From assembly GCA_025359125.1 (NCBI GenBank), contig JANYHI010000063.1, positions 124,001 through 188,000 on the forward strand: a DNA stretch of 64,000 nucleotides, given 5' to 3'. Below the pieces are notes generated by a model. It was not told the DNA's origin, made no database searches, and saw nothing but the letters and a program-made list of their open reading frames with translations. This DNA comes from Cytophagales bacterium (GTDB lineage Bacteria > Bacteroidota > Bacteroidia > Cytophagales > Cyclobacteriaceae). The translations under genes and the position numbers were made by a program. Of this stretch, positions 19,659 to 25,081 are shown in pieces (position 1 is the first letter of the stretch; every line of letters begins with the position of its first letter).

Positions 19659-20768
19659 TCAAACTTTGGCTTCTACTTCATTCATCACCTTCGTTTGCAC
19701 CTGAATCGACTCGTGATGTACCAGTCTCAGCAAGTCGCGCATAAATCCTTCTTCCAAGCCCATTGCCTTACCTAGCGTAACGCGTGTTTTAATAATTTCT
19801 TCCCAGCGATTTACCTGAAGAATTGTTACGTTATTATCTTTTTTATACTGACCAATTTTTTCAGAAATTCTCATTCGCCCAGCCATCTTCTGCATAATCT
19901 CATCGTCTAACTGATCAATCTGTTCGCGCAACAAGCTCAATGTATCTTTAAAAGTTTTATTCTCACTAGATGCAGTTCTGACTACTAGATCATTCAAAAT
20001 TTTTCCAAGCACCGCAGGTGTTACTTGTTGCTTGGCATCGCTCCACGCAGCATCCGGATTGATATGACTTTCAATCATCAACCCAGACATATCTAAATCA
20101 AGCGCCTTTTGCGAAACAAAAGCAATCAAATCACGATTACCTGAAATATGACTTGGATCGCAAATCATCTCCAAATCCGGAAAACGAGTTTTTAATTCAA
20201 TCGCCAAATCCCACATAGGTAAATTGCGGAAAGGTCCTTTTTCAAAAGAAGAAAATCCACGGTGGATAGCCGCCATTTTTTTAATGCCCGCTTTATTCAA
20301 TCGCTCCAATGCGCCAATCCATAATTCCAAATCAGGATTCACCGGGTTCTTCACCATCACAGGTATATCCACACCCTTCAGTGAGTCAGCAATTTCCTGA
20401 ACAGAAAACGGATTAACGGTAGTACGTGCGCCCACCCACAAAATATCTACCCCTGCCTTCAAGCAAGCCTCCACATGCGCAGCGTTTGCCACTTCGGTAG
20501 TAACGGGCAAACCTGTTTCCTTCTTAGCCGTCATTAACCAATTCAACCCAACATCACCCGCACCTTCATATTGCCCAGGGCGCGTGCGCGGTTTCCAAAT
20601 TCCGGCACGCAACGCATGCACTTTTCCGGTAGCAGCAATTTGTTTGGCGGTAGCTACCATCTGCTCTTCTGTTTCGGCACTACAAGGTCCACTAATAATA
20701 ATTGGCTTCTTTACATTCAACCAATTCGCAATCGACTCCAGTTCTAATCCTTTTTTCATGTTGTTCAC
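19659..20768 (-). CDS. Bifunctional DAHP synthase / chorismate mutase
   Basis: This protein combines the first step of the shikimate pathway (PEP plus erythrose-4-phosphate to DAHP) with chorismate-to-prephenate conversion. The DAHP-synthase domain (about 1-270, KDO8P-synthase-like type) shows IISGPCSAET, LRAGIWKPRTRPG, WVGARTT and MICDPSHISG. The C-terminal AroQ-type chorismate mutase (about 275-369) has LREQIDQLDDEIMQKMAGRM and KKDNNV. An in-frame ATG three codons later (20759) is an alternative start. It is the last gene of the pheA operon; a 166-base spacer with a GC-rich element separates it from the fusion gene upstream. Confidence 0.93.
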   Translation of the reverse strand: MNNMKKGLELESIANWLNVKKPIIISGPCSAETEEQMVATAKQIAATGKVHALRAGIWKPRTRPGQYEGAGDVGLNWLMTAKKETGLPVTTEVANAAHVEACLKAGVDILWVGARTTVNPFSVQEIADSLKGVDIPVMVKNPVNPDLELWIGALERLNKAGIKKMAAIHRGFSSFEKGPFRNLPMWDLAIELKTRFPDLEMICDPSHISGNRDLIAFVSQKALDLDMSGLMIESHINPDAAWSDAKQQVTPAVLGKILNDLVVRTASSENKTFKDTLSLLREQIDQLDDEIMQKMAGRMRISEKIGQYKKDNNVTILQVNRWEEIIKTRVTLGKAMGLEEGFMRDLLRLVHHESIQVQTKVMNEVEAKV

Positions 20769-20934: not shown

Positions 20935-22944
20935 TTACTTCTTATCTAATATTCTTCTGATGTCATTCGCATTCGTCAGTGTTTTCACTAATTCTTTTGT
21001 ATCGTGCTTCAACAAATGATAATGAAATTTCTGTAGGTGCATGATATATTCTAACAATGCGTTACTCAAATGTTCTGCATTCTGTTCAAAAATAGGAGCC
21101 CACATAGCAGGAGAACTTTTTGCCAAGCGCACAGTAGAAGCAAAACCACTACCCGCTAAATCAAAAATATTCTTTTCGTCTTTTTCAATATCAAGAACCG
21201 TTTGCCCTAACAAGAACGCGCTCACATGTGATAAGTGCGAAACATACGCCACGTGCTTATCATGTTCATCTGCCTCCATAAAAATGGTCTTCAAGCCCAC
21301 CGCATCAAAAATTTGCTTCGCTATTTTCAATGTGTGCTCCGATGATTTACTCTCTTCACAAATAATATTTGTTTTACCTTCAAACAATCCTTCGAGCGCA
21401 GCAGTAGGTCCAGAGTTTTCCGTTCCTGAAATAGGATGAGCCGCCACAAATTGATTCCTCTTCGGGTGCGTGCTCACCGATTTACAAATCATACTTTTAG
21501 TAGAACCCGTATCAATCACCACCGTATTTTTTCCAATACCATCTAAGATAGAAGGGAGTAATGCGCCAATAGCGTTTACAGGTATTGCCAACAATATCAC
21601 ATCCGATTGAGCCAAGGCTTTATCTTCAGAAAGAATGGTATCAACTAAACCAAGTTCTATTGCTTTCTCTGCATGACTTTGATTGAAATCAACACCGATC
21701 AATTCTGAAATAATTTTCTTTTTACGTAAGTCCAACGCAAACGAACCGCCAATCAAACCCAAACCTATAACTGTAACTTTCATTAAAAATTTAAAATTTA
21801 AAATTCTAGTATATGCTTCATTCAACTTCTCTTCAGTCGCGCAAAGCGAAATACGAATGTGCTTTCTTCCTGCTTCACCAAAAATAAAACCAGGGGTAAT
21901 AAACACGTGAGTGCCATACAAGATTTCATCAACCCATTTTTCAACATCTTTAATCTTCTCAGGTGCTTTTGCCCACACAAATAATCCTGATTGCTTTTTA
22001 GAATATTCACAGTTCAACACATCTAAAATTTTACAAGCAGCATCTTTTCGTTTTTGATAAACTAGGTTCAATTGTGCAAACCATTCTTCGCCACTTTGCA
22101 ATGCCTCCACAGCGGCATGTTGCAAGCCCAAAAACATTCCAGAATCCATATTACTTTTTACGCGCAACACTGCATCAATGTATTGAGCGTTACCTGCAAC
22201 CCACCCAATTCGCCAGCCAGCCATGTTATGAGACTTACTTAATGAGTTAAGCTCTAGTGCCACCTCACTTGCGCCTTCAATACTTAAAATAGAAAGAGGT
22301 TGATCATTTAATATCAGTGAGTATGGATTATCATTTACAATCAAGAAATTATTTTTTCTAGCAAGGTCAATCAATTCTTTCAATTCATCGCGCGAGGCAA
22401 TTCTTCCAGTAGGCATGTGCGGAAAATTCACCCACATAATTTTCACTTTCGATAGATCGCGCTGACGCAATGCACTCATATCAATTCCCCAGTCCGATTC
22501 TTCTTTCAATTTGTAAGTAATCGTTTTAGCTCCTACCAACTTGGCAACTGATGCGTAGGTAGGGTAACCTGGATCAGGAATTAATACTTCATCGCCTTCA
22601 TTCACAAACGCCATCATAATATGCATGATGCCTTCTTTCGATCCCATCAATGGCAAAATTTCCATCTCTGTACTTAAAGAAACTGCATAAGTCTTCATAT
22701 AAAAATCAGCAATAGCTTTGCGCAATTGTGGAATCCCTTTATAATTCTGATACCCATGATTAGCTGGATTCTTTGCAGAAGAAATCAACGCATCGATCGC
22801 TGAGGTGGCCGGCATTTGATCCGGACTTCCAATACCTAAATTAATCACACGCCATTCAGGCGTATCAATACTTCGTACTTCCGCCAGCTTTTTACTGAAG
22901 TAATACTCTTCTACATTTTTTATTCGATCTGCTGCCTTAATCAT
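20935..22944 (-). CDS. Aminotransferase fused to prephenate dehydrogenase
   Basis: A continuous 669-codon frame carries two enzymes. Residues 1-387 are a PLP-dependent class I/II aminotransferase (NLGIGSPDQMP, PDPGYPTY, NDNPYSL, and the lysine motif SLSKSHNMAGWRIG). Residues 388-669 are prephenate dehydrogenase (VTVIGLGLIGGSFA NAD-binding loop, DTGSTKS, AAHPISGTENSG). Together they would convert prephenate to 4-hydroxyphenylpyruvate and transaminate it (and phenylpyruvate) to Tyr/Phe. The junction is only ILNFKFLM, encoded by an AT-rich stretch (21784-21805) that looks like a former spacer, and the dehydrogenase keeps its own Met codon at 21783. This suggests fusion by loss of a stop codon, with internal re-initiation possible. 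Confidence 0.9.
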   Translation of the reverse strand: MIKAADRIKNVEEYYFSKKLAEVRSIDTPEWRVINLGIGSPDQMPATSAIDALISSAKNPANHGYQNYKGIPQLRKAIADFYMKTYAVSLSTEMEILPLMGSKEGIMHIMMAFVNEGDEVLIPDPGYPTYASVAKLVGAKTITYKLKEESDWGIDMSALRQRDLSKVKIMWVNFPHMPTGRIASRDELKELIDLARKNNFLIVNDNPYSLILNDQPLSILSIEGASEVALELNSLSKSHNMAGWRIGWVAGNAQYIDAVLRVKSNMDSGMFLGLQHAAVEALQSGEEWFAQLNLVYQKRKDAACKILDVLNCEYSKKQSGLFVWAKAPEKIKDVEKWVDEILYGTHVFITPGFIFGEAGRKHIRISLCATEEKLNEAYTRILNFKFLMKVTVIGLGLIGGSFALDLRKKKIISELIGVDFNQSHAEKAIELGLVDTILSEDKALAQSDVILLAIPVNAIGALLPSILDGIGKNTVVIDTGSTKSMICKSVSTHPKRNQFVAAHPISGTENSGPTAALEGLFEGKTNIICEESKSSEHTLKIAKQIFDAVGLKTIFMEADEHDKHVAYVSHLSHVSAFLLGQTVLDIEKDEKNIFDLAGSGFASTVRLAKSSPAMWAPIFEQNAEHLSNALLEYIMHLQKFHYHLLKHDTKELVKTLTNANDIRRILDKK

Positions 22945-22983: not shown

Positions 22984-23826
22984 TCACTGATATTCAATTT
23001 TCGCCTTCTTATATTCTCCCAACACATTCAAATTTCTTACTTGCCTAAGTACTTGCTTGATTGCATCATCATAATTTTTTCTACGCTTCCATTCTACATC
23101 TATGTGAATGGAATATTCGCTAGGCTTACCTACAATTGGAATGGATTGAATTTTAGAAAGATTAATTTGGTTGCTCTTTAGCGTCATCAATGCTTCGGCC
23201 AAACTTCCTACTTCATTAGCTACTTCAAAACAAAGAGAGGCTTTATTACTTTCCTTAATTACTTGTCTGCCTTTGGTAAGAATTAAAAAGCGGGTAAAAT
23301 TATTTTTGTGCGTTTCAATACGTTTTTCTAAAATTTGTAAACCGAATTTTTTGGCTGCGTATTCATTTGCTATAGCCGCTGTATCCTTTAGCTTTTTCTC
23401 TTTTACTTTTTTGGCAGATACTGCTGTATCATCACTTTCTCTTATCTCAACATTTTTTAGTCGAAATAAAAAATCATTGCATTGACGAATGGCCATTGGA
23501 TGAGACTCGATGCTTCTTATATCACTAAGTTTTACACCTGGTAAGGTTAGTAGATGCATGTGAATGGGCAAGTACACTTCACCAATAATAGAGAAGTGAT
23601 ACTCCTGTAAAAGAAAATAATTTGGCAAAATGCTGCCCGCAATAGAATTCTCGATTGCCATCACTGCAAAATTCGATTCACCAGTTTTCAACGACTCGCA
23701 CAAGGTATGAAACGACAAACATTCCACCGTTTCAATCGGCTCTTGAAAATACGTCATCGCAGCCACTTCGTGAAAGCTGGTGGCAATGCCCTGTATGGCT
23801 ACTTTGGTTTTTAATTTTTTGCTCAT
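22984..23826 (-). CDS. pheA: Prephenate dehydratase with ACT domain
   Basis: This enzyme converts prephenate to phenylpyruvate. Residues 1-180 form the periplasmic-binding-protein-like catalytic domain, with ENSIAGS (about 60-66), IRSIESHPMAIRQC and the catalytic NNFTRFLIL (about 175-183). Residues about 195-275 are the ACT regulatory domain. The motifs that bind phenylalanine in classical PheA (GALV and ESRP) read GSLA and QSIP here, so allosteric control may differ. It is the first gene of the aromatic operon and is preceded by a terminator and leader peptide described separately. The fusion gene follows after 39 bases. Confidence 0.93.
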   Translation of the reverse strand: MSKKLKTKVAIQGIATSFHEVAAMTYFQEPIETVECLSFHTLCESLKTGESNFAVMAIENSIAGSILPNYFLLQEYHFSIIGEVYLPIHMHLLTLPGVKLSDIRSIESHPMAIRQCNDFLFRLKNVEIRESDDTAVSAKKVKEKKLKDTAAIANEYAAKKFGLQILEKRIETHKNNFTRFLILTKGRQVIKESNKASLCFEVANEVGSLAEALMTLKSNQINLSKIQSIPIVGKPSEYSIHIDVEWKRRKNYDDAIKQVLRQVRNLNVLGEYKKAKIEYQ

Positions 23827-23835
23827 TCAATCGGT

Positions 23836-23871
23836 ATAAAATAAAAAGTCCCGGCTTTCACCGGGACTTTT
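23836..23871 (-). terminator. Attenuator terminator in front of pheA
   Basis: On the minus strand a perfect 11-bp stem, AAAAGTCCCGG / CCGGGACTTTT, with a TGAAAG loop is followed by TTATTTTAT. It lies between the leader peptide stop (23895) and the pheA ATG (23826), so it would stop transcription before the operon. Confidence 0.9.
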
Positions 23872-23894
23872 CTGAGTTTCTTTTGTTTTATGTT

Positions 23895-23972
23895 TCAACA
23901 AAGCGATTCTCTATCTAGTCCCAGTTGGGCTGGATAAAAATAAAAGCTAAAATAAAATCGTTTGCTGCTCAT
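23895..23972 (-). CDS. Phe/Tyr-rich leader peptide of the pheA operon
   Basis: A 25-codon frame, ATG at 23972-23970 and TGA at 23897-23895. It starts MSSKR, then has FYFSFYFY (seven aromatic residues in eight codons), then PAQLGLDRESLC. The codon run is followed at once by alternative RNA structures and an intrinsic terminator. This is the layout of classical ribosome-mediated attenuation: stalling at scarce Phe-/Tyr-tRNA would leave CTGGGACT free to disrupt the terminator. Since the operon makes precisely Phe and Tyr, the match of leader and product is strong evidence. No promoter could be placed with confidence. Confidence 0.85.
   Translation of the reverse strand: MSSKRFYFSFYFYPAQLGLDRESLC
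23917..23924 (-). promoter_or_regulatory. Antiterminator segment of the pheA attenuator
   Basis: The minus-strand CTGGGACT can pair over 8 bases (one G-U) with AGTCCCGG, the 5' arm of the terminator stem (minus strand 23868-23861). It can alternatively pair with CCAG just upstream (CCAG-cccaa-CTGG), within the leader peptide codons directly after the Phe/Tyr run. Confidence 0.75.
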
Positions 23973-24130
23973 GTATTGTATTCGGCATGTAAGGAAAACA
24001 AAAATCTGGAATGATCAAAAGAAGGATTCAAATTTTTATGAAAAAAAATGGATTCCTAACCTTTGTTAGTTAGTAGGTGTTCAGCTATTTCCATAAAACC
24101 ACTACCTTTAACTACCAATTACGAACCTAT

Positions 24131-24580
24131 ATGAAAACAATTTACTCTTTTATAGCACTGTCCCTGATTACACTTTCATCCTGTAATCAATCTGGTAAGC
24201 ACGAACATAATGATAATAAAGCTGCTAATACAGATAATCCAAATCAGGCATTGTATGATCAGGTAATGGACATTCATGATGAGATCATGCCCAAGGTGGA
24301 AGATGTTTATCAACTAAAGAAGCAGCTGCAAGAGAAGATGACCAGCGCAACAGATCTTGCTACCGACAAAAAACAAGAGCTAGAATTAATGGTAATTCAC
24401 CTTGATTCGGCTGATCATTTAATGATGGATTGGATGCACAAGTTTAGTCCTCTTCCTGATTCTGCCGATCAGGAGAAAGCACGTGCTTACCTAGAATCAG
24501 AAATGGAAAAAATCAAAAGGGTGAAAGAACTCATGAACGAGTCTATAGAAAAGGCAAAGTTAGAAATTGCTAAAAAATAA
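24131..24580 (+). CDS. Small helical lipoprotein, unknown function
   Basis: 149 residues from the ATG at 24131, chosen because MKTIYSFIALSLITLSSC is a clean lipoprotein signal with lipobox LSSC. The frame is open 18 codons upstream without a signal. The mature part begins with a His/Asn-rich linker (GKHEHNDNKA), then helical, acidic sequence including YDQVMDIHDEIMPKVEDVYQ and MMDWMHKFSPLPDS. Small lipoproteins of this type (HDEIMP...WM) recur in Bacteroidota without an assigned role. The stop abuts the stop of the convergent SET-domain gene. Confidence 0.7.
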   Translation: MKTIYSFIALSLITLSSCNQSGKHEHNDNKAANTDNPNQALYDQVMDIHDEIMPKVEDVYQLKKQLQEKMTSATDLATDKKQELELMVIHLDSADHLMMDWMHKFSPLPDSADQEKARAYLESEMEKIKRVKELMNESIEKAKLEIAKK

Positions 24581-25081
24581 TTACTTTTTTTTAACTCGCT
24601 TATTTACTTTGTGGTGAGGCAACTCCTTGCCAGTTGCTAACTTTCCTTCTTCAGCTCTATTCTTTTGCTCTAACTTTATATTGTAACGAATTACTTGCCA
24701 GTACTCGGCACCATACCCAACTAAGATCTCTGCTCCTTTAGGTATGTCTTTTGAAGCTTCAATATAGCAACGCCTCTTTTCAGTCACATATTCTGAATTA
24801 TTTCGCACGCCCTCAACTCGTGCAATGCCCATGGCGTCATTGGCGAAGTGAGCAACTGATTTTTTTGTTTGCCATGCATCGATGCAATTCTTGCTGTTAA
24901 AGAAAAAGACATAGCCGTTTCTATCATCAGCCATTTTCTCTACTTCCTTCCAAGTAACCAATTTGCCTTTATACTCAACTATGCGAGTGCCTTTAGCTAT
25001 GGCTACTTTTGTAAATAAACCTCTACCTGCGCCTGGTAAAGTAGATTTTTTTACACTCAACGATTTTTCGAGTAATGCCAT
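24581..25081 (-). CDS. SET domain-containing protein
   Basis: 166 residues forming a single bacterial SET domain. The motifs are GAGRGLFTKVAIAKG (about 17-31), VEYKGKLVT, then NCIDAW, the pseudoknot strand HFANDA (about 78-83), and YGAEYW (about 135-140) before a Lys-rich tail. SET proteins methylate lysines using SAM. In bacteria their targets are usually unknown, and ribosomal or DNA-binding proteins are possible. It lies downstream of the ribosomal str operon but behind a strong terminator, so co-transcription is doubtful. Confidence 0.85.
   Translation of the reverse strand: MALLEKSLSVKKSTLPGAGRGLFTKVAIAKGTRIVEYKGKLVTWKEVEKMADDRNGYVFFFNSKNCIDAWQTKKSVAHFANDAMGIARVEGVRNNSEYVTEKRRCYIEASKDIPKGAEILVGYGAEYWQVIRYNIKLEQKNRAEEGKLATGKELPHHKVNKRVKKK

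Follow-up and report, generated by a model that had tools for sequence, protein, structure and literature searches.

A candidate Phe/Tyr transcription attenuator ahead of pheA and DAHP synthase genes in Bacteroidota

The attenuators of pheA and pheST in gamma-proteobacteria are collected in the family Phe_leader (RF01859), and the multivalent leaders of ilvGMEDA and thrABC in enterobacteria show that one leader can sense several of the amino acids produced by its operon. The best-documented cases of ribosome-mediated attenuation are those of Proteobacteria and Actinobacteria. The consulted part of PMC4833913 gives the same picture. The initial annotation of the locus studied here had called attenuation in Bacteroidota far less documented, which is fair, but earlier work exists. 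In 2005, a putative attenuator was listed for the Bacteroides thetaiotaomicron operon pheA>hisHb>aroAIb-aroQ>tyrA (PMC1173090, Table 7, from Merino's database). Like our leader it lies ahead of pheA, in the same phylum and with the same gene set, and its entry in that table is a listing that describes no leader peptide or amino acid code. In 2021, structured 5' elements before pheA and hisG, together with leader-peptide clues at amino acid operons, were reported for Flavobacterium psychrophilum (PMC9723704). The pheA element of this member of the Flavobacteriaceae also stands ahead of pheA and had no Rfam hit, and it is probably the same element as the one described here; the excerpts of PMC9723704 state no Phe/Tyr code, no covariation and no breadth beyond the family.

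We analysed a stretch of 64,000 nucleotides of Cytophagales DNA, referred to as the window, with a leader ahead of pheA on its minus strand. This leader resembles RF01859 in having a leader ORF, a long stem around the codon run and a terminator, and it matched that family from end to end with 37.2 bits (E 9e-5 in one search and 3.8e-5 in another), below the gathering score of 55. None of 18 related loci reached the gathering score of RF01859 or of any other leader family. The run in RF01859 has no Tyr codon in the printed part of the consensus, whereas the run in the window mixes Tyr and Phe, and unlike RF01859 the window leader precedes a combined Phe and Tyr gene set with DAHP synthase. With ilvGMEDA and thrABC it would share the sensing of more than one amino acid, although the amino acids and the operons are different. 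Among the matches listed in the literature searched, and in the parts of those texts consulted, we found no description of a Phe + Tyr leader in Bacteroidota. The mechanism is classical, and its kind has been glimpsed before in Bacteroidota, where the consulted parts of the reports do not describe it as a Phe + Tyr code. As far as searched, what appears to be new is this code, how widely it occurs and that it is tied to DAHP synthase.

The pheA locus and its leader

The genes that follow the leader were identified as listed here.

22984..23826, minus strand: pheA, prephenate dehydratase with ACT region, ATG at 23826 (Pfam PDT, 188.7 bits)
20935..22944, minus strand: aminotransferase class I/II fused to prephenate dehydrogenase (tyrA), by family search
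19659..20768, minus strand: DAHP synthase fused to chorismate mutase, by family search

The order after the leader is pheA, aminotransferase/tyrA, DAHP synthase/chorismate mutase. From the identities of the three genes, the products of the set are Phe and Tyr, in agreement with the leader composition as initially annotated. Their spacing and common strand suggest that the three may be cotranscribed as one operon. The aminotransferase-prephenate dehydrogenase fusion is a single protein of 669 amino acids adjoining the DAHP synthase-chorismate mutase fusion. The next ORF upstream of the leader (24077..24580) is on the plus strand; the region is thus divergent, without an upstream gene to terminate, and the terminator is therefore part of the leader of pheA itself. 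Further away, a bacterial SET-domain protein (24581-25081, minus strand) adjoins ribosomal protein S10, and a terminator-like hairpin of 16 pairs (25179-25143) lies between these two genes.

The elements of the leader, with the evidence on which each was placed, are as follows.

23999..24032, minus strand: weak candidate for a Bacteroidota-type promoter, TTTG (24032-24029), 22 nt, GATTTTTG (24006-23999)
23895..23972, minus strand: leader peptide ORF, ATG start, 25 amino acids MSSKRFYFSFYFYPAQLGLDRESLC, stop TGA
23954..23967, minus strand: outer (protector) stem, 5' arm, leader codons 2-7 (pairs better with its own partner than with swapped ones)
23934..23957, minus strand: Phe/Tyr codon run FYFSFYFY, codons 6-13 (coordinates computed)
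23920..23929, minus strand: small hairpin CCC-aact-GGG (regions 1:2), immediately 3' of the run (conserved C-G pairs)
23917..23925, minus strand: region 2, ACTGGGACT, 5' arm of the antiterminator (partner-swap test and coordinates)
23909..23911, minus strand: GAG, antiterminator extension, pairing with CTC at 23876-23874 (duplex structures)
23896..23910, minus strand: outer (protector) stem, 3' arm, end of the leader ORF (same partner-swap test as the 5' arm)
23874..23876, minus strand: CTC, partner of GAG (duplex structures)
23860..23868, minus strand: region 3, AGTCCCGGT, common to antiterminator and terminator (partner-swap test)
23843..23872, minus strand: intrinsic terminator hairpin, 13 bp with a loop of 4, followed by ATTTTATACC, the T-rich tail reaching to about 23836

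The 25-codon leader with FYFSFYFY, the terminator with its T-rich tail and the pheA ATG were all present on the minus strand as first read, the hairpin having 13 pairs rather than the 11 bp given. The proposed pairing of CTGGGACT (23924-23917) with AGTCCCGG of the terminator was also recovered, as the 9-bp helix ACTGGGACT:AGTCCCGGT. The CCAG:CTGG stem of the initial annotation does occur in the window and in a few of its kin, but most relatives, compared without L067 and duplicates, have CCC...GGG instead, so that CCAG:CTGG is a local version of CCC:GGG. The set of stems was incomplete, as the long outer stem from leader start to leader end had been missed. The fold energy of the 137-nt leader was -41.5 kcal/mol (z = -6.0), and none of 200 shuffles was as good. 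The promoter candidate of the window scored 9 of 10, and boxes of the TAnnTTTG type were over-represented in the 40 nt that precede the leader ATG (a score of at least 9 in 44 of 97 loci, compared to 3.8% of mononucleotide shuffles), which points to a transcription start before the leader.

Distribution and covariation among relatives

A Phe/Tyr run (at least 6 of 8 F/Y codons, in frame) was found upstream of pheA in 47 of the 48 loci obtained by protein search, the titles of which are mostly Cytophagales or unspecified Bacteroidetes. The sole exception (L077) is a contig that starts inside pheA. In one of the 47 (L067, isolate SSA6 chromosome, CP058703.1) the leader frame is broken by one base in a T-rich stretch, reflecting either a real loss or a sequencing error. 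Sampling for prephenate dehydratase gave the gene in 164 of 188 phylum genomes and 37 of 129 class genomes, and 98 of the phylum and class loci were fetched after thinning by hand by genus; 20 of 26 distant loci from the family of the window were added, and 20 family loci were extended to longer stretches. The other 92 of the 129 class genomes had no prephenate dehydratase match at E <= 0.001, which suggests Phe auxotrophy or an alternative route.

With the strict run criterion a leader was present at 93 of 189 pheA loci on the sense strand, and the identical search of the reverse strand, used as a control, gave 1 of 189 upstream regions. Interrupted runs (e.g. RFYFSNNFYFFF) were accepted by eye at 7 more loci. 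The 189 loci are counted without the short duplicates L003-L005, the RNA-match loci L079-L086 and L007-L030; 20 of the latter 24 were replaced by longer stretches, and the four left unreplaced (L014, L017, L024 and L029) gave no run at pheA, L014 being without enough upstream DNA. Counted on aligned PheA proteins, the leader was found at pheA in 98 of 183 loci, 7 of them with interrupted runs; this alignment omits L067 (broken frame), L077 (contig beginning inside pheA), L224 (leader present, PheA cut) and L202-L204 (no ACT column, no leader). At L097, L181 and L182 DAHP synthase lies downstream, yet no clear leader was found. Upstream of pheA in L097 there is a weak possible leader with scattered F/Y/C/W codons, and complementarity of regions 2 and 3 can be seen by eye.

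A covariance model built on 46 sequences matched 13 of 296 class genomes, once each and always ahead of pheA; two of the 13, the genome of the window itself and G017, belonged to the training set. The model is specific, but it is insensitive beyond near kin, as G224 and G266 carry leaders (L122 and L102, respectively) yet gave no match.

Close and distant relatives alike keep the frame of the leader and its alternative pairings, the latter through compensatory changes, which bears out the original reading. The comparison covered 108 distinct attenuators, located before either pheA or DAHP synthase. A terminator was detected in 103, and the automatic rule found none in the remaining five (L099, L105, L106, L108 and L114). 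Region 2:3 pairing was found in all 103 attenuators with a terminator, with a mean of -18.8 kcal/mol and a weakest value of -11.2 kcal/mol. When the partners were swapped between species the pairing was -13.4 +/- 0.30 kcal/mol, and none of 5000 permutations reached the mean of the own partners (n = 103). As many as 65 different antiterminator helix-core pairs were observed, many of them variants of GGGACT:AGTCCC; AGGATTGTG:TACAATCCT and GTGAGACTCT:GGAGTCTCAC are examples of those that bear no relation to it. The core of region 2 starts 6-14 nt past the run in 98 of the 103. These comparisons are strong evidence that an antiterminator mutually exclusive with the terminator has been maintained by compensatory change.

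The outer stem encloses the run, the first codons of the leader pairing with the leader end (e.g. ACCGATT:AATCGGT, AGCGATT:AATCGCT and AACAACAC:GTGTTGTT). Its own pairing was -12.1 kcal/mol, compared to -8.7 +/- 0.38 kcal/mol for permuted partners (0 of 5000, n = 53), and it was weak (above -6.2 kcal/mol) in 7 of the 53 (L006, L010, L066, L069, L075, L076 and L078). Directly 3' of the run, CCC forms a helix with GGG of region 2, each pair being C-G in 37-43 of 46 sequences. In alignment A1, MAFFT places the terminator and the start of the leader differently from clade to clade; RNAalifold therefore recovered no more than CCC:GGG and the core of the terminator, and the partner-swap tests were used instead.

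By a tally from the tables, the leaders span 18 family codes of the sampled genomes. They make up a covariation-supported attenuator family of that breadth, with no Rfam match at curated scores in the window and 18 relatives.

Proposed mechanism and alternative explanations

The element is, with high probability, a ribosome-mediated transcription attenuator with a bivalent Phe/Tyr code, most likely relieved by shortage of Phe or of Tyr. Transcription would start just upstream of the leader ORF. When both Phe-tRNA and Tyr-tRNA are plentiful, the ribosome would cross the aromatic run and cover region 2, region 3 would pair with region 4, and RNA polymerase would stop before pheA. A shortage of either of the two charged tRNAs would make the ribosome stall in the run and disrupt both the small hairpin and the outer stem; region 3 could then pair with region 2 and its GAG extension, no terminator would form, and the pheA-aminotransferase/tyrA-DAHP synthase/chorismate mutase genes would be transcribed.

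With an assumed ribosome footprint (11 nt past the A-site), a ribosome on the run left region 2 accessible for an average of 99.6% of run codons, and the window RNA up to the end of region 3 adopted the antiterminator fold with a ribosome on the run (-19.2 to -20.6 kcal/mol). A ribosome on the leader stop codon would, with the assumed footprint, mask region 2 in 54 of the 103 attenuators. In 48 of the 103, including the window, the stop codon lies beyond region 2 (in the window 28 nt from where region 2 starts), and therefore a ribosome paused there would not mask region 2 directly. In these 48 it would sit inside the antiterminator loop and might block 2:3 pairing in that way. Without a ribosome, the antiterminator is already the minimum-energy fold of RNA that extends to the end of region 3, so that the default state would be set by folding kinetics together with the leader ribosome.

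In the runs of 93 distinct leaders, Phe was counted 416 times, Tyr 302 times and other residues 67 times, with not a single Leu, and each leader has at least one Tyr and two Phe. Tyr makes up 42% of the F + Y residues in the runs of the relatives and 3 of 7 in that of the window. An attenuator responding to Phe only (or to Tyr only), with the other aromatic codon as neutral filler, could explain why F is the commonest residue and always occurs at least twice; a single base separates F and Y codons, and the Rfam Phe_leader consensus, as far as printed, has a Phe-coded run. We nevertheless consider it unlikely. Tyr accounts for 302 of the 369 run residues other than F, and the mix of F and Y is under-dispersed across genera, the Y count giving 0.45 relative to the binomial expectation (P 0.001; n = 42, one leader per genus or lineage, relatedness ignored). 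With 416 Phe, 302 Tyr and no Leu in the runs, Tyr is therefore selected rather than filler. In addition, the leader accompanies DAHP synthase/chorismate mutase, which feeds Phe and Tyr alike. A tie of the Tyr codons to tyrA was considered and rejected, as Tyr codons persist in the leaders of loci where pheA and DAHP synthase/chorismate mutase were the only genes detected; Tyr thus goes with the shared enzyme and not with tyrA. A code for two amino acids, with sensing of both, can be tested.

The strong structure of the leader RNA would also fit a structured 5' UTR that acts without a translating ribosome, as a riboswitch, a target of an RNA-binding protein or a T-box-like tRNA sensor, the ORF being incidental. 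This is highly improbable given that the run is under codon-level selection, without Leu codons, and that the stem sequences vary while the pairing persists. Moreover, no Rfam regulatory family reached its gathering score in the window, where RF01692 (Bacteroid-trp) and the T-box families were among those compared and only a tRNA reached one, or in 18 sampled relatives, which gave only one unrelated tmRNA. The least probable explanation, with hardly any weight left, is an ordinary intergenic terminator next to a chance Phe/Tyr-rich ORF in an AT-rich region where TTT and TAT are common words; it is refuted by the conservation data, as the run search gave 1 of 189 on the reverse-strand controls and no leader at 58 loci with an ES-type PheA (see below), the helices covary, and the divergent region offers no upstream gene to terminate.

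The family BTnc231 (RF04180) was tried as a hidden phe leader and rejected. It scored 31.3 bits in the window, below its gathering score of 80.4, and gave weak matches in 7 of 198 phylum genomes (E <= 0.001), none above the cut-off, which we attribute to chance; of 8 matching loci only that of the window itself adjoins a PheA gene. The cut-off was exceeded in one control genome, Bacteroides ihuae. If the attenuator reading is right, short terminated transcripts before pheA in Bacteroidota would be attenuated leaders and not trans-acting small RNAs.

The ACT motif of PheA and the leader at DAHP synthase

ESRP is a ligand-binding motif of the PheA ACT domain, according to the consulted part of PMC10845154. 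At the position of ESRP in Phe-binding PheAs, aligned to 2qmx, the PheA of the window has QSIP, and every aligned PheA with a leader has QSxP. In the 183 aligned proteins a leader at pheA was found for 98 of 123 of the QS type, none of 58 of the ES type and neither of 2 others. The phylum and class sample of 98 loci gave 37 strict leaders, 7 interrupted ones and 11 without among 55 QS-type loci, and no leader among 41 ES-type loci and 2 others. The initial annotation had described the ACT motifs of this PheA as non-classical, and the pattern agrees with that, but the ES/QS contrast rests on about 3 evolutionary changes and was not significant in the independent-pairs test (3 starred pairs). 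A link between the leader and QS-type PheA is thus suggestive. L209 at first appeared to be an ESRP locus with a leader; the regular expression had matched elsewhere in the protein, and the aligned ACT column reads QSVP. At L181 and L182, which have DAHP synthase downstream and no leader, PheA has QSRP, between both motif types.

In 13 members of the family of the window, pheA lacks a leader and is followed by aminotransferase-tyrA, and DAHP synthase was not detected further downstream. An equivalent leader (e.g. MLIAAFAYFTFFYFYFRLQGRIGAAYCLVKE) heads the DAHP synthase/chorismate mutase gene in all 13 (L245 read by eye). This count covers the searched genomes, three more such genomes (G021, G050 and G034) being outside it. 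In 11 of the 13, the leader-headed gene shares the strand of pheA and is located 2.4-3.5 kb upstream of it, and in G039 and G043 it is on a different contig from pheA. In G040 at least two more ORFs, two of which we take from sequence to be aroB and aroA, come after the DAHP synthase gene, and about 700 nt separate them from pheA. Of the 11 QS-type loci of the phylum and class sample that have no leader at pheA, four (L094, L095, L100 and L112, family f49) had none at DAHP synthase either; L107 (f52) had none at pheA, and the DNA upstream of its DAHP synthase was too short to judge. At L001, L002, L006, L052, L071 and L078 a leader is present without a DAHP synthase match, in at least some cases because the locus stretch is short. 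The independent-contrast test of the linkage between leader and DAHP synthase was underpowered, with 7 starred pairs. In 20 family genomes searched for DAHP synthase, a leader was found at 1 of 30 loci (L265); PheA type was read in 16 of the 20, all 16 being of the ES type, with G004, G005, G007 and G032 outside the reading.

We tentatively propose, as a possibility well short of an even chance, that in one large branch of the Bacteroidota the control of Phe and Tyr synthesis may have moved from allostery to attenuation. The ACT domain would have lost the Phe-binding ESRP, now QSxP, and the bivalent attenuator would do the sensing and follow DAHP synthase/chorismate mutase, the shared entry enzyme, when the genes are rearranged. 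The hypothesis offered is that enzyme feedback and attenuation may replace each other within one pathway.

Two observations at DAHP synthase genes stand by themselves. L265 (G048) has a Phe/Tyr leader and a terminator before DAHP synthase despite an ES-type PheA, which breaks the exclusivity of the pattern. Genomes of family f1 have two neighbouring DAHP synthase/chorismate mutase genes (L235/L243, L236/L244, L237/L246 and L238/L247), and the leader is found only on the copy nearer to pheA.
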